Assembly: GCF_902832845.1 (NCBI RefSeq)
Contig: NZ_CADFDB010000012.1
Coordinates: forward strand, 1-64,000
Direction: 5' to 3'
Length of the DNA stretch: 64,000 bases
Origin: Burkholderia metallica
GTDB taxonomy: Bacteria > Pseudomonadota > Gammaproteobacteria > Burkholderiales > Burkholderiaceae
In this document: positions 44,677-60,027 of the stretch, piece after piece
How positions within the stretch are numbered: position 1 is the first letter of the stretch
How the letters are laid out: each line of letters opens with the position of its first letter
Program-made: the position numbers and the translations under genes
Notes under the pieces: generated by a model
The model's input: only the letters and a program-made list of their open reading frames with translations
Database searches by the model: none
What the model was told of the DNA's origin: nothing

Positions 44677-45408
44677 TTAGAAGCGGTAGCCGACGTTCAG
44701 GTACGTCACGATCGGGTTCAGCGAGATGTGGGCCTTCGACGTTTCCGTCAGCGTACCGACCGGCGTGCGGCGGGCCGTCGTGAAGGTCGCGGTCACGCTG
44801 ACCGGGATGTACGAAAGCGACAGGCCGGCGAACCAGTGTTTCGTGAAGTTGTACGTGAAGCCGGCGTTGAAGACGGGCGCCCACTGGTTGCTGGTCGTCG
44901 CGCTGGTCGGGCCGCCGAGCACGCCGTTCTCGAAGCTGCTGTTCGTGATCTTCGCGCCGGTGAACCACACATACGTCGCGCCGATGCCGACATACGGACG
45001 GAACTTCGCGTTGGCGTCGTTGAAGTGGTAGCGAAGCAGGACGGCAGGGCTCCACTGATACGCGCGGCCGAGCACGCCGAACTTGTCGAACTGACCCTTG
45101 CCGGTAATGTCGAACTTCGGCGGTATCCCCATGACGAGCTCGGTGGAGAGGTGGTCGGTAATGAAGTATCCGGTTGCGAGGCCGAGCGTGTCGGCATCGG
45201 TGATCCCCGCGCCGGTATTGGGAATGGACTGATTGATGGGCGTACCGCCGACGCCGTACACGTAGAGCGGGTCGCTCTTGTCTTGCGGGGCCAGGTGGAG
45301 CCAGCCGGTGCTGACGTAGAAATCACCTGCGGATTGTGCATGTGCCGTACCGCCCGCGAAAGCAAATGCGAGCGCTGCGGCCCCCGTAATGGCCAGTTTT
45401 CGTTTCAT
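44677..45408 (-). CDS. ompW: Outer-membrane protein OmpW family
   Basis: 243 residues. Start at MKRKLAITGAAALAFAFAGG, with GGAGGAGACACA just upstream; a longer in-frame start is rejected. The signal ends at AHA/QSAGD. The mature part is an eight-stranded beta-barrel of the OmpW type (GLATGYFITDHLSTELVMGI; FRPYVGIGATYVWF) ending in VGYRF with a C-terminal Phe, the outer-membrane insertion signal. Likely a small hydrophobic-compound channel. It has a good promoter at 45437-45466. Confidence 0.93.
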   Translation of the reverse strand: MKRKLAITGAAALAFAFAGGTAHAQSAGDFYVSTGWLHLAPQDKSDPLYVYGVGGTPINQSIPNTGAGITDADTLGLATGYFITDHLSTELVMGIPPKFDITGKGQFDKFGVLGRAYQWSPAVLLRYHFNDANAKFRPYVGIGATYVWFTGAKITNSSFENGVLGGPTSATTSNQWAPVFNAGFTYNFTKHWFAGLSLSYIPVSVTATFTTARRTPVGTLTETSKAHISLNPIVTYLNVGYRF

Positions 45409-45436
45409 TGTGTCTCCTCCGATCAAAGGCGTGCTC

Positions 45437-45466
45437 ATTATGACGACAGCGTTTAAAACCAAACAA
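45437..45466 (-). promoter_or_regulatory. ompW promoter
   Basis: On the minus strand: TTGTTT (45466-45461), an 18-base spacer and CATAAT (45442-45437), about 29 bases before the ompW start codon. Confidence 0.65.
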
Positions 45467-45601
45467 GCTCGTAAGTTAGAGTTTTCTCCCTAGGTTTCGT
45501 ACGACCGTACGCTTTCACGCCCCGCGGGGACAGGCATTCTATGCAGGTGCGCATTTTCGGACCTCCGGGTATTTCCTAACGCGTTCAAACGGACATTCAG
45601 C

Positions 45602-46315
45602 ATGGCACGGTTAGCACGACTCTACGTTCCCGACCAGCCGCAGCACGTGATACTGCGCGGCCTGGATCAGCAACCCGCGTTCGTCGACGACCAGGACTAC
45701 GAACTCTTCATCGATTGCCTGAAGGCCGCCGCGCGCGATCATCACCTGTCGGTGCACGCCTACGTGCTGCTGCCGCGCCAGGTGCAACTCCTCGTGACGC
45801 CGAGCGACGAGGCGAGCCTGCCGAAAGCGATGCAGGCCGTCGGCCGCCGCTACGTCGCCCATTTCAATCGGCGCTATTCGCGGCGCGGCACCCTGTGGGA
45901 AGGCCGCTATCGCGCGACCGTGATCGAAGGCGAGCGCTATTTCCTGCTCGCGAGCCGCGTGGTCGAGATGAGTCCGGTGCGCGCGCAGCTCGTCGCGACG
46001 CCCGAGGCCTATCGCTGGTCGAGCTACCGGCACCACGTCGGGCTCACCGTCGACAGCCTGATCACCGACCATCCGCTCTACTGGGCGCTCGGCAATACGC
46101 CGTTCGACCGCCAGCGTGCGTACAAGGAGCTGTGCGAGCAGCCGCTCGACGAGCGGCAGGCCGACCAGTTGCAACAGGCGACGCTGAAGGGCTGGGTGCT
46201 CGGCGGCGAGAATTACCGCGAGTGGGCGGCGCGTACCGCGAACCGGCGCGTATCGCCGCTGCCGCGCGGACGCCCCAGAAAGGTGCGTGAAAACACACCG
46301 CCGGCCCAGCAGTAA
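45602..46315 (+). CDS. Degenerate REP-associated tyrosine transposase (RAYT) homologue
   Basis: 237 residues. It is clearly of the IS200/RAYT (Y1 transposase) family: [57 protein letters not shown] and PWSSY-like WSSYRHH. The HUH motif (normally NHVHLL) reads RQVQLL, with Q60 and Q62 replacing both histidines. The catalytic Tyr (RYIELNPVRA in relatives) is Val120 in [10 protein letters not shown]. The C-terminus has an AT-hook core, [10 protein letters not shown]. The frame is intact, so it is probably a retained DNA-binding protein, not an active transposase. It lies between ompW and gltB. Confidence 0.85.
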
Positions 46316-46333
46316 TACGGAAAGGCGAATCAG

Positions 46334-46366
46334 GAAGCGGCGCAGCGGGCGCCGCTTCTTTTTTTG
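46334..46366 (+). terminator. Terminator after the RAYT homologue
   Basis: GAAGCGGCGC (46334-46343) pairs perfectly with GCGCCGCTTC (46349-46358) around AGCGG; TTTTTTT follows. Confidence 0.92.
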
Positions 46367-46445
46367 CACCAAATCGATACGGACCCAATAAAACGGCACC
46401 AGATAAAGGCATTGATTTAATTGGGGTTCGATCAAGCGGTTTTTG

Positions 46446-46475
46446 TTGCTATTCCTTTGATTCGTCGCGTATATT
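46446..46475 (+). promoter_or_regulatory. Candidate gltBD promoter
   Basis: TTGCTA (46446-46451), an 18-base spacer and TATATT (46470-46475) in an AT-rich stretch about 130 bases before gltB. This is the only plausible sigma-70 site between the preceding terminator and gltB. Confidence 0.55.
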
Positions 46476-46605
46476 CCGAATTCCGGTGGCCCGGGCGAAG
46501 CATGCCCATCCACTGTCGGCCGTGCCGTCTCCTGTCGGGAGCGGGATCGACGGCAACAAGAAAATGGTTCAACGGCCTCCAGGCCCCCTTTACGACGGTG
46601 TCCCC

Positions 46606-49600
46606 ATGAACGACCACCAGCAGCCGCTCGCCGCGGTGCCCGCCGCACAAGGTCTGTACGACCCGCAAAACGAACACGACGCCTGCGGCGTCGGCTTCGT
46701 CGCTCACATCAAGGGCAAGAAGAGCCACGAGATCATTCAGCAGGGTCTGAAGATCCTCGAGAACCTCGATCACCGCGGCGCGGTCGGCGCCGATCCGCTG
46801 ATGGGCGACGGCGCGGGCATCCTGATCCAGATTCCGGACGCGTTCTATCGCGAGGAAATGTCGAAGCAGGGCGTGACGCTGCCGCCGGCCGGCGAATACG
46901 GGGTTGGGATGATCTTCCTGCCGAAGGAAAACGCATCGCGTCTCGCGTGCGAGCAGGAGCTCGAGCGGACGGTGCGGGCGGAAGGTCAGGTCGTGCTCGG
47001 CTGGCGCGACGTGCCGGTCGACCATGCGATGCCGATTTCGCCGACCGTGAAGGCGAGCGAGCCGCTGATCCGCCAGATCTTCATCGGCCGCGGCAAGGAC
47101 ATCATGGTGACCGACGCGCTCGAGCGGAAGCTGTACGTGATCCGCAAGACCGCGAGCCACCGCATCCAGGCGCTGAAGCTCAAGCACGGCAAGGAATACT
47201 TCGTGCCGTCGATGTCGGCGCGCACGATCGTCTACAAGGGGCTGCTGCTCGCGGGCCAGGTCGGCGTGTACTACCGCGACCTGCAGGACCCGCGCGTCGT
47301 GTCGGCGCTCGCGCTCGTGCACCAGCGCTTCTCGACCAACACGTTCCCGGCGTGGGAGCTGGCTCACCCGTACCGGATGATCGCGCACAACGGCGAGATC
47401 AACACCGTGAAGGGCAACGTGAACTGGCTGAACGCGCGTACCGGCGCGATTGCGTCGCACGTGCTGGCCGACGACCTTCCGAAGCTGTGGCCGCTGATCT
47501 ATCCGGGCCAGTCCGACACCGCGTCGTTCGACAACTGTCTCGAACTGCTGGTGATGGCCGGCTACCCGCTCGTGCACGCCGTGATGATGATGATCCCGGA
47601 AGCGTGGGAACAGCACACGCTGATGGACGAGAACCGCCGCGCGTTCTACGAATACCACGCCGCGATGATGGAGCCGTGGGACGGCCCGGCCGCGATCGCC
47701 TTCACCGACGGCCGCCAGATCGGCGCGACGCTCGACCGTAACGGCCTGCGTCCGGCGCGCTACATCGTGACCGACGACGACCTCGTCATCATGGCGTCGG
47801 AAGCCGGCACGCTGCCGATTCCCGAATCGAAGATCGTCAAGAAGTGGCGCCTGCAGCCGGGCAAGATGTTCCTGATCGACATGGAACACGGCCGCATCAT
47901 CGACGACAAGGAACTGAAGGACAACCTCGCGAACGCGAAGCCGTACAAGAGCTGGATCGACGCCGTGCGCATCAAGCTCGACGAGATCGAGCCGAAGGCC
48001 GAGGACGTCGCGGCCGGCCGTACGCAGGGCGCCGCGCTGCTCGACCGCCAGCAGGCGTTCGGCTATACGCAGGAAGACCTGAAGTTCCTGATGGCGCCGA
48101 TGGCGCAGCAGGGCGAGGAAGCGGTCGGCTCGATGGGCAACGACTCGCCGCTCGCGGTGATGTCGAACAAGAACAAGACGCTCTATCACTACTTCAAGCA
48201 GCTGTTCGCGCAGGTCACGAACCCGCCGATCGACCCGATCCGCGAGAACATGGTCATGTCGCTCGTGTCGTTCATCGGCCCGAAGCCGAACCTGCTCGAC
48301 ACGAACAACATCAACCCGCCGATGCGTCTCGAAGTGTCGCAGCCGGTGCTCGACTTCAAGGACATCGCGAAGATCCGCGCGATCGACCAGTACACGGGCG
48401 GCAAGTTCAGCGCGTACGAACTGAACATCTGCTACCCGGTCGCGTGGGGCAAGGAAGGCATCGAGGCGCGCCTCGCGTCGCTGTGCGCGGAAGCCGTCGA
48501 CGCGGTGAAGTCGGGCTACAACATGCTGATCGTGTCGGACCGCAAGACGGACGCCGAGCACGTCGCGATTCCGGCGCTGCTCGCCACGTCGGCGATCCAC
48601 ACGCACCTCGTCCAGCAAGGGCTGCGCACGAGCACGGGCCTCGTCGTCGAGACGGGCTCCGCGCGCGAAACGCACCACTTCGCGCTGCTCGCGGGCTACG
48701 GCGCGGAAGCCGTGCACCCGTATCTCGCGATGGAAACGCTCGCGAAGATGGCCGAAGGGCTGCCGGGCGACCTGTCGCCGGAGAAGGCCGTCTACAACTT
48801 CACGAAGGCGGTCGGCAAGGGCCTGCAGAAAGTGATGTCGAAGATGGGCATCTCGACCTACATGTCGTACACGGGCGCGCAGATCTTCGAAGCGCTCGGC
48901 CTGTCGAGCGACCTCGTCGAGAAGTACTTCAAGGGCACGGCGTCGAAGGTCGGCGGCATCGGGCTGTTCGAAGTCGCGGAAGAGGCGATCCGCCTGCACC
49001 GCGACGCGTTCGGCGACAGCCCGGTCCTGCGCGACATGCTCGACGCGGGCGGCGAGTACGCGTACCGCGTGCGCGGCGAAGACCACATGTGGACGCCGGA
49101 TTCGATCGCGAAGCTCCAGCATGCGACGCGCAGCAACTCGTACCAGACGTACAAGGAATACGCGCACCTGATCAACGACCAGACCAAGCGGCACATGACG
49201 TTCCGTGGCCTGTTCGAGTTCAAGGTCGAGCCGACCAAGGCGATCCCGATCGACGACGTCGAGCCGGCGAAGGACATCGTCAAGCGTTTTGCGACGGGCG
49301 CGATGTCGCTCGGTTCGATCAGCACCGAAGCGCACGCGACGCTCGCGATCGCAATGAACCGGATCGGCGGCAAGTCGAACACCGGCGAAGGCGGCGAGGA
49401 CGAAAAGCGCTATCGCAACGAACTGCGCGGCATTCCGATCAAGTCTGGCGAGACGCTGAAGTCGGTGATCGGCGACGAGATCGTCAGCGACATTCCGCTG
49501 AAGGACGGCGATTCGCTGCGCTCGAAGATCAAGCAGGTCGCATCGGGCCGCTTCGGCGTCACCGCCGAGTACCTCGCGTCGGCCGACCAGATCCAGATCA

Positions 49601-51309
49601 AGATGGCGCAGGGCGCGAAGCCGGGCGAAGGCGGCCAGCTGCCGGGCCACAAGGTGTCCGAATACATCGGCAAGCTGCGTTACTCGGTGCCGGGCGTCGG
49701 CCTGATCTCGCCGCCGCCGCACCACGACATCTACTCGATCGAGGATCTGGCGCAGCTGATCCACGACCTGAAGAACGTGAACCCGAGCTCGAGCATCTCC
49801 GTGAAGCTCGTGTCGGAAGTGGGTGTCGGTACCGTCGCGGCCGGTGTCGCGAAGGCGAAGGCCGATCACGTCGTGATCGCCGGCCATGACGGCGGCACGG
49901 GCGCATCGCCGCTGTCGTCGGTCAAGCACGCCGGCACGCCGTGGGAGCTGGGCCTCGCCGAAACGCAGCAGACGCTGGTGCTGAACCGCCTGCGCGGGCG
50001 CATCCGCGTGCAGGCCGACGGCCAGATGAAGACGGGCCGCGACGTCGTGATCGGCGCGCTGCTCGGCGCGGACGAATTCGGCTTCGCGACGGCGCCGCTC
50101 GTCGTCGAAGGCTGCATCATGATGCGCAAGTGCCACCTGAACACGTGCCCGGTCGGCGTCGCGACGCAGGATCCGGTGCTGCGTGCGAAGTTCAAGGGCC
50201 AGCCCGAGCACGTCGTGAACTACTTCTTCTTCGTCGCCGAGGAAGTGCGCGAAATCATGGCGCAGCTCGGCATCGCGAAGTTCGACGACCTGATCGGCCG
50301 CGCCGACCTGCTCGACACCCGCAAGGGCATCGAGCACTGGAAGGCGAAGGGCCTCGACTTCTCGCGCGTGTTCTACCAGCCGGAAGAGTGCGAAGACGTC
50401 GCGCGCCGTCACGTCGACGTGCAGGATCACGGCCTCGAGCGCGCGCTCGACCACGTGCTGATCGAGAAGGCGAAGGCCGCGATCGAGAACGGCGAGCATG
50501 TGTCGTTCATCCAGCCGGTGCGCAACGTGAACCGTACGGTCGGCGCGATGCTGTCGGGCGTGATCGCGAAGAAGCACGGCCACGACGGCCTGGCCGACGA
50601 CGCGGTGCACATCCAGCTGAAGGGCACGGCCGGCCAGAGCTTCGGCGCGTTCCTCGCGAAGGGCGTGACGCTCGACCTCGTCGGCGACGGCAACGACTAC
50701 GTCGGCAAGGGCCTGTCGGGCGGCCGGATCATCATCCGTCCGACCAACGACTTCCGCGGCAAGTCCGAGGAAAACATCATCTGCGGCAACACGGTGATGT
50801 ACGGCGCGATCGAAGGCGAAGCATTCTTCCGCGGCGTCGCGGGCGAGCGCTTCTGCGTGCGCAACTCGGGCGCGACGGCGGTCGTCGAAGGCACGGGCGA
50901 CCACGGTTGCGAATACATGACGGGCGGCACGGTCGTCGTGCTCGGCGAGACGGGGCGCAACTTCGCGGCCGGCATGTCGGGCGGTCTCGCCTACATCTAC
51001 GATCCGGAAGGCACGTTCGCGGCGAAGTGCAACAAGTCGATGGTCGCGCTCGAGCCGGTGCTGCAGCAGGCCGAGCAGGAGCGTACGGTCGACCGCGCTC
51101 TCTGGCATACGGGCACGACGGACGAAGCGCTGCTCAAGGGGCTCGTCGAGCGTCATTTCCAGTTCACGGGTTCGCCGCGCGCGAAGTCGCTGCTGGAAAA
51201 CTGGGACGCGGCGCGCCGCCAGTTCGTGAAGGTGTTCCCGCACGAATACAAGCGCGCGCTGGGCGAGATCGGTGCGAAGAAGGCGGCGAAGGAAGAACTG
51301 GCCGCCTGA
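46606..51309 (+). CDS. gltB: Glutamate synthase (NADPH) large subunit
   Basis: 1567 residues. It converts glutamine and 2-oxoglutarate to two glutamates. The start at 46606 ([19 protein letters not shown]) leaves a short propeptide before the nucleophile C27 ([10 protein letters not shown]) of the class II amidotransferase domain. A central domain, the FMN barrel with [16 protein letters not shown] and [12 protein letters not shown], the 3Fe-4S site CHLNTCPVG (near residue 1180), and a C-terminal GXGXG beta-helix ([20 protein letters not shown]) follow. Partner gltD is 85 bases downstream. Confidence 0.98.
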
Positions 51310-51394
51310 GCGACGAACGACACAGCGAATGCCGCGCGCGCCTGATGGCCGCGCGCGGCTCCCCCACCCGATACACCGAACAGAAGAGCACCTT

Positions 51395-52861
51395 ATGGGC
51401 AAGGCAACCGGTTTTCTGGAGTTCGAACGCCGCCACGAGGCGTACGAAGCACCGCTCACGCGCGTGAAGCACTACAAGGAATTCGTCGCGGCACTGACCG
51501 ACGCGGACGCGAAGGTCCAGGGCGCGCGCTGCATGGATTGCGGCATCCCGTTCTGCAACAACGGCTGCCCGGTCAACAACATCATTCCGGACTTCAACGA
51601 TCTCGTTTACCGCCAGGACTGGCAGCAGGCGATCGAAGTCCTGCATTCGACCAACAACTTCCCGGAATTCACGGGCCGCATCTGCCCGGCGCCGTGCGAA
51701 GCGGCGTGCACGCTCGGGATCAACGACGACCCGGTCGGCATCAAGTCGATCGAGCACGCGATCATCGACAAGGCCTGGGCGGAAGGCTGGGTGAAGCCGC
51801 TGCCGGCCGAGCACAAGACGGGCAAGAAGGTCGCGGTCGTCGGTTCGGGCCCCGCGGGCCTCGCCGCCGCGCAGCAGCTCGCGCGTGCGGGCCACGACGT
51901 GACGGTGTTCGAGAAGAACGATCGCGTCGGCGGCCTGCTGCGCTACGGGATCCCCGACTTCAAGCTCGAGAAGTGGCTGATCGACCGCCGCATGCGTCAG
52001 ATGGAAGCGGAAGGCGTGACGTTCCGCACCAGCGTGTTCATCGGCAAGGATCCGCTGCCCGAGTCGATCGGCAGTCTCGCGAAGGAAACCATCTCGCCGG
52101 ACACGCTGAAGGAAGAATTCGACGCGGTCGTGATCGCGGGCGGGTCGGAAACGCCGCGCGACTTGCCGGTGCCGGGCCGCGAACTCGCGGGTGTCCATTT
52201 CGCGATGGACTTCCTGCCGCAGCAGAACCGCGTGAACGCGGGCGACAAGCTCGCCGACCAGCTGCTCGCGAAGGGCAAGCACGTGATCGTGATCGGCGGC
52301 GGCGATACGGGTTCGGACTGCGTCGGCACGTCGAATCGTCACGGCGCGAAGCAGGTCACGCAGTTCGAGCTGCTGCCGCAGCCGCCGGAAGAGGAAAACA
52401 AGCCGCTCGTGTGGCCGTACTGGCCGATCAAGCTGCGCACGTCGTCGTCGCACGAGGAAGGTTGCGAGCGTGACTGGGCGGTCGCGACGAAGCGCCTCGA
52501 AGGCAAGAACGGCAAGGTCGAAAAGCTGATCGCGGTGCGCGTCGAGTGGAAGGACGGCAAGATGCAGGAAGTGCCGGGTTCCGAGTTCGAGATGAAGGCC
52601 GACCTCGTGCTGCTCGCGATGGGCTTCACGCAGCCGGCGGCGCCGGTGCTCGACGCGTTCGGCGTCGCGAAGGATGCGCGCGGCAATGCGCGTGCGGCGA
52701 CCGAAGGCGATCGTTCGTACTACACGTCGGTCGACAAGGTGTTCGCGGCGGGCGACATGCGCCGCGGCCAGTCGCTCGTGGTGTGGGCGATCCGCGAAGG
52801 CCGCCAGTGCGCGCGCTCGGTCGATGCGTACCTGATGGGGCATTCGGAACTGCCGCGCTGA
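51395..52861 (+). CDS. gltD: Glutamate synthase (NADPH) small subunit
   Basis: 488 residues. N-terminal CMDCGIPFC...GCPVNN and CPAPCEAAC cysteines bind two 4Fe-4S clusters. FAD site [17 protein letters not shown] and NADPH site [16 protein letters not shown] follow. It feeds electrons from NADPH to GltB. The ATG at 51395 gives [15 protein letters not shown], the family start. Confidence 0.98.
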
Positions 52862-52890
52862 GCTGAATAGCGCGAGCGGGTTTCGATGAG

Positions 52891-52923
52891 AACCGGGCGT
52901 CCGAAAGGGCGCCCGGTTTTTTT
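52891..52923 (+). terminator. gltD terminator
   Basis: AACCGGGCG (52891-52899) pairs with CGCCCGGTT (52910-52918) followed by TTTTT. It marks the boundary between core GC-rich sequence and the lower-GC island on the right. Confidence 0.9.
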
Positions 52924-52933
52924 ATTTCTGAAG

Positions 52934-53317
52934 TTATCGGCGATCCTGAGCTTGTCCGGTTTTGTCGACCGGCTGATCTTTGACTTGCCAATAGCTTGAA
53001 AGCTGTTCGTTGCAGTCGATCATCGCGATGTATCTGGTTTCGACAATGAGCAGGGGGAATTCCCACATGCCCAGTTTCCATGCGTGATACTGCGGCGCTC
53101 CGTCGAACCGGATGCTGTCCAGCGGTATTCCTTGTTCCTCGAGACGTAACAGGACCTTGTTTCGTAGCGTATCGAGAGACATGTCAGGGCAACTGCCTTC
53201 GGTCCGCTCATATCGGGAAGTCGCGACGACGACGAACAGTAGCGCATAGGTGCCGATCGCTGCGATAACCAACCAGAGAACTAGCCGTAGGATTCCGCGT
53301 ATGACTCTGGAAATCAT
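52934..53317 (-). CDS. Probable colicin M-type immunity protein
   Basis: 127 residues, no strong sequence match recalled. One N-terminal membrane helix (about residues 8-32, ILRLVLWLVIAAIGTYALLF) is followed by a soluble domain of about 90 residues that would face the periplasm. It has just two cysteines, C43 and C102. This matches the design of the E. coli colicin M immunity protein Cmi (117 residues, one membrane anchor, two cysteines forming a disulfide). It lies 76 bases downstream of the colicin M-like gene on the same strand. The function is inferred from architecture and neighbourhood. Confidence 0.55.
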   Translation of the reverse strand: MISRVIRGILRLVLWLVIAAIGTYALLFVVVATSRYERTEGSCPDMSLDTLRNKVLLRLEEQGIPLDSIRFDGAPQYHAWKLGMWEFPLLIVETRYIAMIDCNEQLSSYWQVKDQPVDKTGQAQDRR

Positions 53318-53393
53318 GAGGTGCTCAACGTGGGCATGAAAAAAATGACGGTTGACCCGGGCAGTCGAATTTTCGGAGCCGCCCGGGGGCCTG

Positions 53394-54527
53394 CTAGCGA
53401 GTCGGTCGCATCAGTCCACCGAACGACGGCCTATGGACTGCCTGCGGGGGGCGTGTGCCTGCATTCTTGACAGGTCGTTGGCCAGAGAACGTGAGACTTT
53501 TTTCACCGAAAAAGTTGATTTGATAGTCCTTATGTCCCAGGGTGGCTCCGAGCTTGGATAGGAACGTCGTCGCAGCCTCCTGCAGAAATGGTCGGTTTGA
53601 AGGATCTGCATCGAACTTGTCGGGATTGAGTGAGTAGTAACCGACGAATCGATATGTATCGTCCTCCAGCATTTCAAGCGTGCCACGTACCCTGCCGGAT
53701 ACTCGCCCAAAGACTGCGGCACTCCAGAGATCCTTTGTCCCGTGATTGAAGATGTTGGTGCTGAAACCGGTGTCGAACGAGTAGATGCCGGGGCCATACC
53801 CGGGATTTTCGATGGCTCTCGATATTTCCGAGAAATCGAGGATGCTCATCTTCAAGTTGAGTGATTCAATATGAACGGTTCGTTGAGTTCCGTCTCCGTG
53901 TATCCAATGATTGAGTGCTTCGACGAACATCAGCGGATTGCCGTACGACGCGAATGTGCTCGTTGGCGGGATGCCGCTTGATTGTCCGATATAGATGCCA
54001 AATAGCGCAGTGATGTTGGCATATGTTCCAGGTTCAAAATTGAATCCGTATTGATTGGCGCCAGGCAAATATTTGTAGCCACCGATGGCCAGCCAAGGAG
54101 TGAAGCCGCCCACCAGCATTAATTGATTGCGCCAGAATTTTGTGTCGTTGCCCCCGAAGACTTGGAGATGTTTGAGAAACATCTCGGTGGCGCGGATCAT
54201 GTTGCCCGTGTTCGCAAAAAGCAACATGAAATTCGATGTGCAGTACTGATTGAAGCAAATTGAAGGTGCCGGCATTCCGGCGCCGGGGTTGGCGCCGGGA
54301 ATTTCGTTTACCTTGATACCGAAATCGCCAAAATTAAAGTCGGGCGGCCTCGGTGCTGTGATCTCGATGGGCGGGAGGACGTTGTTCTGAGCCATGGCCG
54401 TCGCGTGCTTCAGCAGCGTGCCAAACGGGAGCACGGTTGACGCGACCAGAAGACGTCGTCGCATCAAAGGCTGTTGCTTTTCTTCAGAGGCGTGGCTTGT
54501 CTGTTTCAAAGAGTTATGCTTCGTCAT
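53394..54527 (-). CDS. Colicin M family protein with export signal
   Basis: 377 residues from ATG 54527. Residues 23-46 look like a Sec or Tat signal (MRRRLLVASTVLPFGT...ATAMA/QNN), then a TonB-box-like IEITAPRPP (54-62). Blocks match colicin M as I recall it: ALNHWIHGDGTQRTVHIESL against ALAHYLWGNGAERSVNIANI, and SKLGATLGHKDYQI against TRLGAMFSGKEYQI. Colicin M cleaves lipid II in the periplasm. Its catalytic DKYDFNASTHR is here DKFDADPSNRP (residues 303-313): both Asp are kept, Tyr becomes Phe, and His-Arg becomes Arg-Pro. A basic 27-residue tail is extra. Confidence 0.78.
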   Translation of the reverse strand: MTKHNSLKQTSHASEEKQQPLMRRRLLVASTVLPFGTLLKHATAMAQNNVLPPIEITAPRPPDFNFGDFGIKVNEIPGANPGAGMPAPSICFNQYCTSNFMLLFANTGNMIRATEMFLKHLQVFGGNDTKFWRNQLMLVGGFTPWLAIGGYKYLPGANQYGFNFEPGTYANITALFGIYIGQSSGIPPTSTFASYGNPLMFVEALNHWIHGDGTQRTVHIESLNLKMSILDFSEISRAIENPGYGPGIYSFDTGFSTNIFNHGTKDLWSAAVFGRVSGRVRGTLEMLEDDTYRFVGYYSLNPDKFDADPSNRPFLQEAATTFLSKLGATLGHKDYQINFFGEKSLTFSGQRPVKNAGTRPPQAVHRPSFGGLMRPTR

Positions 54528-55065
54528 TTCATATCCCGTGCAGTGTTGATTTCGATGATTGATTCGCATGCCTGAGAATGAGACGGTTATATTTTTTTTG
54601 CTGCCTGCAAGGAGTTTGTCCGGCACGTATTCGTGGGGGAGTCATCCGGAACACTTCTACGAAGCGAAATCAAAAGAGATTCCCGAGAGCATGCGACCGC
54701 GCTTCCTTGTCTCGGAATTAGCCGGGCGCCGGCTAGGGATGTGGGGATGCTGAGGACGCGTGGTTGGTCGACCGATCGGCTACCGCTGTGTATCGTCCGG
54801 GTAAGGGCCGAGAAAAGTCGAAATGCGGAAACACTTTCCTCTGCGTGTCCTGTTGACTGAGCAATGTGTCAAACAGTCACGGGAGAGTGTCCAAGGTGAC
54901 GGGGGCGTGTTGACGCATCTGATCAGGAGAGATCGGTCCCTTGATTTGTCATGATGCCGAATCCTTTCATTTTGTAATAATTCTTGAGAACTGTCATATC
55001 ATGTCGCCTCTCAGGCCGCGTCCGCGGCTGCCGCATATGACCGACCCTATTTACAAGGACTCTGG
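54528..55065. other. Intergenic region between the colicin M-like gene and the symporter
   Basis: Divergent 538-base region in the low-GC island. Short plus-strand ORFs (64 and 75 codons) have no ribosome site or domain and are not accepted. An AT-rich stretch (54968-55002, with TTGTAA and TATCAT 19 bases apart) could be the symporter promoter. TGTCAAACA and TGTTGACG words near 54872-54915 hint at a repeat but form no clean element. Confidence 0.45.
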
Positions 55066-56562
55066 ATGGAAGCATTCGTGCATGGGCTGATCGACGCCAT
55101 CAATGGCGTGTTGTGGAACTACGTGCTGATCGCGCTGCTGCTCGGCGCCGGTGCGTGGTTCACGTTGCGGTTCCGGATGATCCAGTTGAAGGCGCTGTTC
55201 CTCAGCATGAAACTGGTCGGCAGCAAGGGCGAACCGGGCAGCATCTCGTCGTTCCAGGCGTTCGCGACCGGGCTCGCGAGCCGCGTCGGCACCGGCAACA
55301 TCGCCGGCGTCGCGGTTGCGCTGACGGTCGGCGGGCCGGGCGCGATCTTCTGGATGTGGATGACGGCGCTCGTCGGGATGTCGTCCGCGTTCGTCGAGGC
55401 GACGCTCGCGCAGATCTTCAAGGTGTCGCACGCCGACGGCAGCTATCGCGGCGGCCCCGCGTACTACATCCAGACGGGCCTGCGTTCGCGCGGCTTCGGC
55501 GTGCTGTTCTCGCTGTCGCTGATTCTCGCGTTCGGCTTCGTGTTCAATGCGGTGCAGGCCAACGCGATCGCCGATGCGTTCGACACGTCGTTCGGCTGGA
55601 GCCGCGCAAGCGTCGGTCTCGCGCTCGTGCTGCTGACCGCGCCGATCATCTTCGGCGGGATCCGCCGGATCGCGGCGGTTGCGCAGGTGATCGTGCCGCT
55701 GATGGCGATCGGCTATCTCGCGCTCGCGGTCTATGCGGTCGCGACGCATCTTGCGCTGGTGCCGGGCGTGATCGCGCTGATCGTGAAGAGCGCGTTCGGC
55801 CTCGAGCAGGCGGCGGGCGGCCTGACGGGCTATGCGGTCAGCCAGGCGGTCGCGATGGGCGTGAAGCGCGGGCTGTTCTCGAACGAGGCCGGCATGGGCA
55901 GCGCGCCGAATGCGGCGGCGACCGCCAGCACGCGGCATCCGGTCGTGCAGGGGCTGATCCAGATGCTCGGCGTGTTCGTCGACACGATCGTGATCTGCAG
56001 CGCGACCGCCTTCGTGATTCTGCTGTCGGGCCAGTACGAGCTGGGCACCGGCATGGAAGGCGCGGCGCTCACGCAGCGGTCCATCGCGAGCCACGTCGGC
56101 GACTGGGGCGGCATCTACATGGCGTTCGCGATCTTCTTCTTCGCGTATTCGTCGGTGATCGGCAACTACGCGTATGCGGAAGGCAACGTCGAATTCATCA
56201 CGAAGCGGCGCGGCGTGCTGCCGCTATTCCGCGTCGCGGTGCTCGGCATGGTGATGTTCGGCAGCGTCGGGCAACTGCCGCTCGTGTGGGCGATGGCCGA
56301 TACGAGCATGGGGCTGATGGCGATCATCAACCTGATCGCGATCCTCGCGCTCGGCAAGTACGCGCACGCGGCGTGGCGCGACTATCGCCGCCAGCGCGCG
56401 GAAGGCGTGGCCGATCCGGTGTTCACGCGCAACACGATTCCGGAACTCGCGAACGTGCTGCCGACCGACGTGTGGGGCGAGCATGGCCCGCTGCCGCAGC
56501 GCCCGGCCGCGGCCGATGAGGCCAGCGCGAACGCGCCGCGCACGGTGGTGCGCGAGTCATGA
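55066..56562 (+). CDS. Alanine/glycine:cation symporter (AGCS family)
   Basis: 498 residues with about eleven membrane helices. The family signatures ATGLASRVGTGNIAGVAVAL and GVKRGLFSNEAGMGSAPNAAA are intact. It imports small neutral amino acids with sodium or protons. The start is MEAFVHGLIDAINGVLW. It ends with an ATGA overlap into thpR. The D-amino-acid dehydrogenase gene nearby suggests an alanine-use context, but this is inference. Confidence 0.93.
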   Translation: MEAFVHGLIDAINGVLWNYVLIALLLGAGAWFTLRFRMIQLKALFLSMKLVGSKGEPGSISSFQAFATGLASRVGTGNIAGVAVALTVGGPGAIFWMWMTALVGMSSAFVEATLAQIFKVSHADGSYRGGPAYYIQTGLRSRGFGVLFSLSLILAFGFVFNAVQANAIADAFDTSFGWSRASVGLALVLLTAPIIFGGIRRIAAVAQVIVPLMAIGYLALAVYAVATHLALVPGVIALIVKSAFGLEQAAGGLTGYAVSQAVAMGVKRGLFSNEAGMGSAPNAAATASTRHPVVQGLIQMLGVFVDTIVICSATAFVILLSGQYELGTGMEGAALTQRSIASHVGDWGGIYMAFAIFFFAYSSVIGNYAYAEGNVEFITKRRGVLPLFRVAVLGMVMFGSVGQLPLVWAMADTSMGLMAIINLIAILALGKYAHAAWRDYRRQRAEGVADPVFTRNTIPELANVLPTDVWGEHGPLPQRPAAADEASANAPRTVVRES

Positions 56563-57125
56563 ACGGCGACCGGTTGCGCGTGTTCGTCGCGCTGGTGCCC
56601 GATGCGGCATCGCGCGACGCGCTGCACGCGTTGCCGGTCGCCCGTGGCGCGCGGCGCACGCAGCCCGCGCAACTGCATGTGACGCTCGCGTTCGTCGGTG
56701 CGATCGAGCGGGCCTGCTGCGATGCGCTGGCCGCGTGCCTGCCGGCGCTCGCGGCCGCGCATGCGCTGCCGCCGACACCGGTCGAGCGGATCGCGTGGTG
56801 GCCGAGCCTGCCGCGCGCGCGGCTGATCGTCGCGGAACTCGCGGCCGAGCCGGCGTGTTCGGCGCTTCATGCGGACCTGTCGGCACGGCTGCGCGAGCTG
56901 GGCGTGCCCGCCGACCGGCGGCCGTTCCGTCCGCACGTGACGCTCGCGCGGCTGCTGCACGATGCGGACGGTCAACCTGCGCATGGCGGTGCAACCGGTC
57001 GGCCGCTCGCGTTGCGCTTCGACGCGCTCACGCTGTTCGAAAGCCGGCTGTCGCACGAAGGCGTGTCGCATCGGCCGATCGTGTCGGCGCCGATCACACG
57101 GGCGGACGGCGCGGTAGCGGGCTGA
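56559..57125 (+). CDS. thpR: RNA 2',3'-cyclic phosphodiesterase (2'-5' RNA ligase family)
   Basis: 188 residues. Two catalytic HxT motifs, HVTLAF (residues 40-45) and HVTLAR (about 127-132), define the 2H phosphoesterase fold; RLRVFVALVPD is the usual start. It hydrolyses 2',3'-cyclic phosphate ends of RNA; the physiological role is unclear. The start overlaps the symporter stop by four bases. Confidence 0.9.
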   Translation: MNGDRLRVFVALVPDAASRDALHALPVARGARRTQPAQLHVTLAFVGAIERACCDALAACLPALAAAHALPPTPVERIAWWPSLPRARLIVAELAAEPACSALHADLSARLRELGVPADRRPFRPHVTLARLLHDADGQPAHGGATGRPLALRFDALTLFESRLSHEGVSHRPIVSAPITRADGAVAG

Positions 57126-57227
57126 GCCGTTCCGGCGCAGCCGACGGCCGGTGGCGATCATCGCCGTGCCGAACGCGGGGCCGCCGCTGCCGCATCGCTT
57201 CGGCGACGTCGCGCAACGTCCGACCCG

Positions 57228-58565
57228 CTACCCGTAACGCGCGAGCGTCAATCCCGACAGATCGATCTCCGGTTCTCGTCCCGTGACGAGATCGGCGAGC
57301 ACCTTCCCCGACCCCATCGACATCGCCCAGCCCGTCGAGCCGTGACCGACGTTCAGCCAGAGCCCGTCGATCCCGCTCGCGCCCAGCAGCGGCGGCCCGT
57401 CGGGCGTCATCGGCCGGCGGCCGACCCAGAAGCGCGCCGACGCGCGATCGGCTGCGTGCGGGAACCAGTCGTCGAGCACCTTCATCAGCGTATCGAGCGC
57501 CTGCTGCCGCAGCGCCGCGTGCCGGTTGCCGAGCTCCGCGGTGCCCGCGACGCGCAGCGTCGGGCCGAAGCGCGTGATCGCCGTCTTCAGCGATTCGTCC
57601 ATCAGCGCGGCATGCGGGGCCTTTTCATCGTCGACGACCGCGAGCGTCGCCGAGTACCCCTTCACCGGATACAGCGGCACGTCGATGCCGTACGGCCGCA
57701 GCAGGCCGGCGCTGTCGACGCCGAGCGCGACGACGATCGCGTCGGCCGCGAGCTGCGAGTCGCGACGATTGCCGCCGGTGCGCGACGCGCGCGGATGCGT
57801 GCCGGCCCGGTCGCGCGGATCGCCGGCCTCGTCGCCGTCACCGTTGCCGACGATCCGCACGCCGCGCACTCGGCCGGTTTCGACGTCGAGCGCCTGCACG
57901 TCGGTGCGAAAGCGGAACGTCACGCCGTTCGCTTCGCACAGCGCCCGCAGTTCGCGCGTGAAGCGGGCGCAGTCGCCGGCTTCGTCGTCGGGCAGGTAGA
58001 TGCCGCCGACCGGCGCCTGCCGCGCCCAGCGCAGACCCGGCTCGATCGCCGTGCAGCCGGCCGCATCGAGTTCGCGAAACGCGATACCGGCATCGCGCAG
58101 CACCTTCAGCGCCGGCTGCACCATCTCGACGTCGAACGCGCCGCGCAGCAGTTGCAGGTAGCCGCGGCTCGCGCCGTAATCGAACGGGTGGCGGTCGCGA
58201 AACGCGTGCAGGCACGCGCGGCTGTAATACGCGATACGCTGCATCCGCTGCTTGTTCACGCGGAACCGCCCGAATTCGCATTCGCGCAGCCAGTGCGCGA
58301 TCCAGCGCCACTGCGCGGGGTCTAGCGTCGGCCGGAAGATCAGCGGCGACGCGGGCTCGAACAGGTACTTGAGGATCTTGCCGGGCATCCCGGGCGCGGC
58401 CCACGGCGTCACGTAGCCGGGCGCGATCACGCCCGCGTTGCCGAGGCTCGTCGCCTGCGCGACGTCGGCCTCGCGCTCGATCACGGTGACGTCGCAGCCT
58501 GCTTCGCGCAGGTGCCAGGCGGTGGTGACGCCGATCACGCCGGCGCCGAGAACGATCACGTGCAT
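57228..58565 (-). CDS. dadA: D-amino acid dehydrogenase
   Basis: 445 residues. FAD-binding VIVLGAGVIGVTTAWHLREA at the N-terminus, the conserved SLGNAGVIAPGYVTPWAAPG, and C-terminal WVGRRPMTPDGPPLLG with LNVGHGSTGWAMSMGSGKVL are DadA hallmarks. It oxidises D-alanine and others to keto acids, passing electrons to the membrane. An unusual hydrophilic insert of about 30 residues (GNGDGDEAGD...GGNRRDSQ, near residue 240) interrupts the substrate domain. It is 25 bases downstream of an MFS gene on the same strand. Confidence 0.9.
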   Translation of the reverse strand: MHVIVLGAGVIGVTTAWHLREAGCDVTVIEREADVAQATSLGNAGVIAPGYVTPWAAPGMPGKILKYLFEPASPLIFRPTLDPAQWRWIAHWLRECEFGRFRVNKQRMQRIAYYSRACLHAFRDRHPFDYGASRGYLQLLRGAFDVEMVQPALKVLRDAGIAFRELDAAGCTAIEPGLRWARQAPVGGIYLPDDEAGDCARFTRELRALCEANGVTFRFRTDVQALDVETGRVRGVRIVGNGDGDEAGDPRDRAGTHPRASRTGGNRRDSQLAADAIVVALGVDSAGLLRPYGIDVPLYPVKGYSATLAVVDDEKAPHAALMDESLKTAITRFGPTLRVAGTAELGNRHAALRQQALDTLMKVLDDWFPHAADRASARFWVGRRPMTPDGPPLLGASGIDGLWLNVGHGSTGWAMSMGSGKVLADLVTGREPEIDLSGLTLARYG

Positions 58566-58590
58566 GCGGTTTCCGGAACGAAGCGGTGGT

Positions 58591-59853
58591 TCAGGATGCG
58601 ACGGCCGGATCGTCGGCGAGCGACTTGCCGCGCGTTTCCGGCAGCACGAGCGCGGCGACGATCACGAGCAGGTAGCCGCCACCCGCGACGAGGCCGATCG
58701 CCTTCACGAGCGACATCGACTGCGACAGCGAGCCGACGAGGATCGGGAAGAACGAGCCGAGCCCGCGCCCGAGGTTGTAGCAGAAGCCCTGGCCCGAGCC
58801 GCGGATCGCGCCCGGATACAGCTCGGACAGGTACGCGCCGACGCCCGCGAAGATGCCCTGCACGACGATGCCGAGCGGGAAGCCGAGCAGCAGCATCGCG
58901 GTGTCGGTGATCGGCAGCATCGTGTACGCCATGCCGAGCGAGAACGAGCCGATCGCGAACAGGATGAACGACGCGCGGCGCCCGAGCCGGTCGGACAGGA
59001 TCGCGCCGACCACGTAGCCGACGAACGAGCCGACGATCAGCACGACGAGATAGCCGCTCGTGTTGAACACCGACAGATGGCGCACGGTCTTCAGGTAGGT
59101 GGGCAGCCACGTCGTGATCGCGTAGTAGCCGCCGAGCATGCCGGTGCACAGCGCGCTGCCGAACAGCGTTGCGCGCAGGTGCGGCGGCGAGAAGATCTCG
59201 AGGAAGTGGCCCGACACGCGGCCTTCGTCGCGCGCGCGGCGGGTGGCCGTGTAGATGTCCGGATCGCTGACGTTGCGGCGGATGTACAGGATCCACAGCG
59301 CGGGCACGATGCCGATCCAGAAGCACGCGCGCCATGCGAGCTGCTCGGGCAGCAGCGCGAAGAACGCCCAGTAGAGGATCGCGGCCGCGCCCCAGCCGAA
59401 CGACCAGCTGCTCTGCACGGTGCCGACCGCTTTCGCGCGATGCTCGGGCGAGCGGATCGTCTCGGCCATCATGATCGTCACGACCGACCATTCGCCGCCG
59501 AAGCCGAAGCCCTGCAGCGTGCGCGTCGCGAGCAGCTGCCAGAACGAATGCGTGAAACCGGACAGGCACGTGAACAGCGCGAACGTCGCGATGGTCCACT
59601 GCAGCACGCGGACGCGGCCGTAGCGATCGGCGAGGATGCCGGCGACCCAGCCGCCGAGCGCCGACGAGATCAGCGAACTCGTCGCGATCATTCCGGCCTC
59701 GCTCTTCGTCATGCCCCACGTGGCGATCAGCGTCGGAATCAGGAACGAGTAGATCATGAAGTCGAACGCATCGACCGCGTAGCCGCCGAATCCGGCGTAC
59801 AGCGTCCTGCGCTCGCGCGTCGACAGTTCGTTGAACCACTGGAATGCCTGCAT
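58591..59853 (-). CDS. MFS transporter (sugar/metabolite:H+ symporter type)
   Basis: 420 residues with twelve membrane helices. Motifs GGYAVDAFDFMIYSF (helix 1), ADRYGRVRVL (loop 2-3), FGFGGEWSVV, SDRLGRRASF (loop 8-9) and PETRGKSL at the end place it near the aromatic-acid/sialate-type symporters. Its substrate cannot be read from sequence; co-transcription with dadA suggests an amino acid or keto acid. The start is MQAFQWFNELSTRERRTLYA. Confidence 0.85.
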   Translation of the reverse strand: MQAFQWFNELSTRERRTLYAGFGGYAVDAFDFMIYSFLIPTLIATWGMTKSEAGMIATSSLISSALGGWVAGILADRYGRVRVLQWTIATFALFTCLSGFTHSFWQLLATRTLQGFGFGGEWSVVTIMMAETIRSPEHRAKAVGTVQSSWSFGWGAAAILYWAFFALLPEQLAWRACFWIGIVPALWILYIRRNVSDPDIYTATRRARDEGRVSGHFLEIFSPPHLRATLFGSALCTGMLGGYYAITTWLPTYLKTVRHLSVFNTSGYLVVLIVGSFVGYVVGAILSDRLGRRASFILFAIGSFSLGMAYTMLPITDTAMLLLGFPLGIVVQGIFAGVGAYLSELYPGAIRGSGQGFCYNLGRGLGSFFPILVGSLSQSMSLVKAIGLVAGGGYLLVIVAALVLPETRGKSLADDPAVAS

Positions 59854-60027
59854 GCTTGCCGCCCCCTGTTGTCTCGTCTCTCGTTTCGCGCTGCCGTCTG
59901 GCGGTTATTTTACGGGCGGATGCGGAGCGCCAAAAAGGCACGTGCAGGTGGGCGTGCGGCGGCGCGACGGATCGGGAGGGCGGTGGACGATCGTTCGAGG
60001 AAGGCGCGATGGTCGATCGCTCGCATG

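Follow-up and report, generated by a model that had tools for sequence, protein, structure and literature searches.

A probable burkhocin M toxin–immunity gene pair between gltD and a symporter gene of Burkholderia metallica

Introduction

A 64,000-nucleotide stretch of Burkholderia metallica DNA (contig NZ_CADFDB010000012.1, positions 1 to 64,000, referred to below as the window) carries a minus-strand gene, here termed burM, whose predicted product combines a colicin M-like domain with an N-terminal export-type signal and changed catalytic residues. The locus raises the question of what such a protein does, and a first-pass annotation made from the sequence alone had left three options, namely a divergent lipid II hydrolase, a different enzyme on the same fold, or a dead toxin. 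Burkhocins M, described in 2015, have an export signal, a conserved N-terminal box, a C-terminal extension and a downstream gene known as bmiB (PMC4661593); these and other published findings are cited here from passages of three articles (PMC4661593, PMC5821083, PMC8469651). On the strength of sequence comparison and analogy with these proteins, we consider it highly probable that burM and its neighbour bmiB constitute a burkhocin M toxin–immunity pair. The pair is very likely functional, its lipid II chemistry being the part that we infer. Both the system and its genomic site are already in print and are of an ordinary, well-described kind, and the finding mainly confirms a published family.

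Results

The burM gene (53394..54527, stop codon included, minus strand) was recognized from its open frame, a Pfam match and its homologues, and the frame is intact from ATG through stop, encoding 377 amino acids. Residues 196–351, which we take as the ColM catalytic domain (53475..53942, minus strand), match Pfam family PF14859 (Colicin_M) with an E value of 8.4e-15 and 55 bits against a cut-off of 27. Chains of colicin M in the PDB match BurM in sequence at E values of 3.1e-10 to 8.7e-10, and all 14 matches returned at E ≤0.001 by a PDB fold search are colicin-M-type bacteriocins, so that the family membership proposed in the first-pass annotation is borne out by profile and fold alike. The two conserved blocks that it had named are both present in the alignment to the PDB chains, ALNHWIHGDGTQRTVHI of BurM standing opposite ALAHYLWGNGAERSVNI of colicin M, and LGATLGHKDYQI opposite LGAMFSGKEYQI. 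Its statement that the likeness extends over most of the protein proved too broad: by sequence only residues 196–351 of 377, approximately the C-terminal 40%, are aligned, and within the N-terminal half residues 1–86 and 147–208 are hardly covered by the fold matches. Beyond the Pfam domain, residues 352–377 (26 residues; 53397..53474, minus strand) form the C-terminal extension typical of burkhocins, in which it is described as 26–36 residues long (PMC4661593).

The catalytic motif, DKFDADPSNR (D303–R312; 53592..53621, minus strand), was aligned to DKYDFNASTHR of colicin M, and its conservation was examined among 15 intact burkhocins of the genus from 14 genomes, with the split copies of genomes G048, G059 and G044 excluded. 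Residues D303, S310, R312 and E317 are invariant in all 15, position 305 is Phe or Tyr, and position 306 is Asp in 13. The first-pass annotation had regarded the essential His-Arg pair as replaced; the His is indeed absent, but R312 aligns with the Arg of colicin M, the BurM subgroup being one residue shorter ahead of it. Relative to the full DxYDx5HR motif, BurM therefore has Phe in place of Tyr and lacks the His, while the Asp and Arg are retained. Published burkhocins likewise show strict conservation of the Asp and Arg and absence of the corresponding histidine (PMC4661593), and so the missing His is no bar to membership of the burkhocin branch. Indeed, on the aligned sequences the changed catalytic residues are normal for this burkhocin subfamily. 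A review attributes DxYDx5HR to all burkhocins (PMC8469651), a claim that the aligned homologue sequences fail to support.

An export-type signal occupies residues 22–47 (MRRRLLVAS...AMAQ; 54387..54464, minus strand), as the first-pass annotation had suggested. Its twin arginine (R23 R24) is invariant in all 15 homologues and is followed by a hydrophobic run ending near AMAQ47, directly after which the protein continues with LPPIEITAPRPP. The motif, together with published predictions for relatives, suggests that the signal is probably of the twin-arginine translocation (Tat) type; among 16 burkhocin strains, Tat signals were predicted in 12, Sec signals in two and neither in two (PMC4661593). 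With export signals thus predicted in 14 of 16 strains, the view that a secreted colicin M relative would be an uncommon design in Burkholderia is not upheld.

A few residues further on lies the segment LPPIEITA (residues 51–58; 54354..54377, minus strand), identified by the pattern Lxx[IV]x[IV] and a receptor profile, which resembles a Ton box and bears out the TonB-box-like start noted at first. The B. metallica genome of the window has 20 matches to the plug domain PF07715, and in all 20 of these receptors the pattern occurs within 70 residues ahead of the plug (0.63 of 20 in shuffled sequences); after the signal, every one of the 15 burkhocins has it (1.2 of the 15 when shuffled). These counts are a descriptive likeness and not a blind test, because the pattern was composed after both sets had been viewed. 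Scored against a profile built from the octamers of the 20 receptors, BurM reaches 14.7, and the runner-up among the 136 open reading frames of the window 6.6. The N-terminal box is reported to be conserved among burkhocins but to differ from that of colicin M (PMC4661593); its likeness to receptor Ton boxes was not met in the passages of that paper cited here, and the literature search spanned 2018 onwards. A burkhocin box that matches the Ton boxes of the organism's own TonB-dependent receptors makes TonB-dependent import a concrete and testable proposal.

Downstream of burM on the same strand is bmiB (52934..53317, minus strand), predicted to encode an immunity protein of 127 amino acids with one N-terminal hydrophobic helix followed by two Cys residues. 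The assignment was made by this layout (helix, two Cys, downstream position on the same strand), and a Pfam search found no family for BmiB. Across 65 Burkholderia genomes (the window and 64 others), 17 species have a match to burM and 24 have one to bmiB. The 18 burM loci fall equally between the gap separating gltD from the sodium:alanine symporter gene (PF01235), which is the site occupied in the window, and positions elsewhere. In the gap, a bmiB match lies beside burM in 9/9 loci, including the window; elsewhere, a BmiB profile finds such a neighbour in 7/9 and none beside burM in G019 and G027. The earlier hint that the downstream gene confers immunity appears to have been right.

The two genes lie on a low-G+C insert (52926..54942), the edges of which were set by comparing filled with empty sites; its G+C content is 0.49–0.58, against 0.63–0.69 in the flanks. 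In the 65 genomes the gap contains burM with bmiB (9), bmiB without burM (12), a spacer of 216–379 bp only (28) or other content of 1.3–1.4 kb (5); in the remaining 11 no symporter gene adjoins gltD, two of these genomes (G050 and G051) having offered little sequence for inspection. The gap offers a toxin–immunity site that can be counted across species as filled, holding the immunity gene alone, or empty. Among the bmiB-only gaps, the match is partial in G041 and double in each of G010, G022 and G047. In G053 (locus L059), bmiB, matching window positions 52859–53324, is followed by the burM leader (54525–54877), burM itself being absent, and the lone bmiB seems to be an orphan immunity gene left after loss of the toxin. 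Orphan bmiB genes have been reported previously (PMC4661593).

In a wider sample of 398 genomes from the phylum, PF14859 was matched by one genome alone, that of the window, and it was matched by none of 14 control genomes. Phage records gave no match. Plasmid records with a match numbered 427, in Escherichia, Salmonella, Shigella and Klebsiella; none spans 80% of the query, and the 20 matches listed are annotated as colicin M. A collection of named genomes gave one relative, from Burkholderia catarinensis (88%), although records near the window's genome may have been omitted from it.

Discussion

The closest published counterparts are BurM2-BmiB of Burkholderia ambifaria AMMD and the subgroup of ATCC 25416, MC40-6 and LMG 23361, with which the window pair shares a downstream bmiB on the same strand, the export signal, the conserved box, the motif DKFDADxSNR, the C-terminal extension and low G+C content (PMC4661593). 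The same glutamate synthase–symporter site is reported for a group comprising AMMD, GG4, ATCC 25416 and Bu (PMC4661593), and the sizes of the window proteins, 377 and 127 amino acids, equal those tabulated for the pair of Burkholderia contaminans LMG 23361 (Table 1 of PMC4661593). BurM differs from BurM2 in being 54% identical to the homologue (in G002, presumably AMMD) that bears the published BurM2 motif, and in a twin arginine suggestive of Tat where BurM2 is a predicted Sec substrate (PMC4661593). BurM1-BmiA of B. ambifaria MEX-5 is also a ColM-beta bacteriocin with a Tat signal (PMC4661593), but its immunity protein has three membrane helices and its gene order and motif are different (PMC4661593, PMC5821083). 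Colicin M, pectocins M1 and M2, syringacin M and PaeM (ColM-alpha) share with BurM the ColM domain, the fold and the catalytic Asp and Arg; unlike BurM, they have no export signal, retain the His and differ in their receptor-binding parts and immunity proteins (PMC5821083).

Our current working hypothesis is that BurM is synthesized with an export signal, probably Tat, by which it would leave the cytoplasm, and that its Ton-box-like N-terminal segment probably permits it to be pulled through a TonB-dependent receptor of related Burkholderia, which it is thought to kill by attacking a cell-wall precursor. From an anchor in the inner membrane, BmiB would project into the periplasm and protect the producer, as is in print for BurM2-BmiB of AMMD; killing of related Burkholderia, and protection by the bmi gene, have been shown for both BurM1 and BurM2 (PMC4661593).

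Several observations weigh against this interpretation. NCBIfam assigns no family to BurM or BmiB. The predicted model of BurM is weak, with a mean predicted local distance difference test (pLDDT) score of 51, and no catalytic distances were taken from it because residues 302–336 score below 50. In the octamer profile, receptors scored with themselves left out span 5.6–22.8, and the homologue in G008 scores poorly (6.8, a value reached by 32 of 2000 shuffles). Purified BurM2 kills some Burkholderia, about 7% of 44 strains (PMC4661593). In three of the 18 loci (L055 in G048, L058 in G059 and L070 in G044) burM is split between frames, and the gene is therefore not retained everywhere. Finally, BurM lacks the His that colicin M uses for catalysis, none being found ahead of the Arg in any of the 15 homologues.

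This last point is the starting place for the most serious alternative, that BurM kills but that its ColM domain, having lost the His, attaches to lipid II or a related envelope target and leaves it uncut, or else breaks a different bond. Reviews state that lipid II cleavage had not yet been tested for BurM1 (PMC5821083) or for any burkhocin (PMC8469651), although a later test is possible, and a hydrolysis-deficient mutant of pectocin M1 was still able to lyse (PMC5821083). Asp303 and Arg312 are nevertheless invariant, and in BurM2, whose motif is DKFDADSSNR, the equivalent Asp297 is needed for killing (PMC4661593), which is enzyme-like behaviour even if binding could require the Asp too. We regard this alternative as unlikely. 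Of the three options in the first-pass annotation, the divergent lipid II hydrolase is the best supported, because BurM2 kills with the same His-less motif and its Asp297 is essential.

Were BurM to cut lipid II, a stand-in for the absent residue might be sought in His332 (53532..53534, minus strand). This position is His in 14 of the 15 homologues, Arg in that of G008 and Gly in colicin M, and it belongs to a block G-H-x-D-[YF] that adjoins the invariant Asp334; the pattern was not met in the cited passages of the burkhocin literature. It is conceivable, if quite improbable and frankly speculative, that His332 beside Asp334 serves as the general acid/base, the His having moved to another strand. 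The burkhocins could show whether lipid II is still cut by a ColM domain that lacks the His.

That burM is a dead or decaying toxin, retained merely because it lies beside an immunity gene, would accord with the three split copies, with the 12 of 65 species in which bmiB stands in the gap without burM and with the burM footprint in one of them. In the window, however, the frame is intact and the signal, the Ton-box-like segment and the invariant residues are all in place. Proteins 84–99% identical occur in four other species, each with bmiB beside its gene, and this conservation of an intact frame makes a dead toxin unlikely; we rejected this third option of the first-pass annotation as very improbable. 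That BurM is instead a housekeeping or cell-wall enzyme of the periplasm, built on the ColM fold but with no role as a weapon, is scarcely credible and was also rejected. Although the export signal would place BurM in the periplasm of the producer itself, with access to exposed lipid II, the gene is patchily distributed (17/65 species), lies on a low-G+C insert and adjoins an immunity-type gene, and its relatives kill (PMC4661593).

Other features of the locus

A terminator-like hairpin after gltD (52888..52921, plus strand) marks the left edge of the insert and is kept in species in which the site is empty; the right edge, near 54942, coincides with the start of the symporter leader. Repeats in 52800–55100 are short (12–18 nt) and none frames the insert, no tRNA gene was found in 45000–60000, and a promoter scan gave a single weak site, at 54997–54969 upstream of burM and on the burM strand.

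In G048 bmiB is split as well as burM, and the split copies in G048, G059 and G044 appear to be decaying. The burM-less gaps of G047 (L063), G022 (L066) and G010 (L067) contain tandem bmiB-like matches, one of them partial in G047. In G008 (L053) the gap measures 3.5 kb; the region upstream of burM is longer there by approximately 1.3 kb, and a transposase-like frame was seen by eye in this additional DNA. Other cargo at the site includes a PhyH-like dioxygenase gene in G019 (L116, 334–1413; PF05721, E 3.5e-8), with similar frames recognized by eye in G043 (L109), G061 (L113) and G049 (L065), and a lectin-like gene in G044 (L128, 475–1002) with a ricin-B-type match under the Pfam cut-offs, a similar frame being present in G045 (L122).

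The genome of the window also has a second burM elsewhere (G000:C2, L071, 9448–10945, minus strand), near the end of a contig. It encodes a protein of 359 amino acids with the motif DKFDFDASRSR that is 39% identical over residues 135–374, and a BmiB-like gene lies downstream of it.
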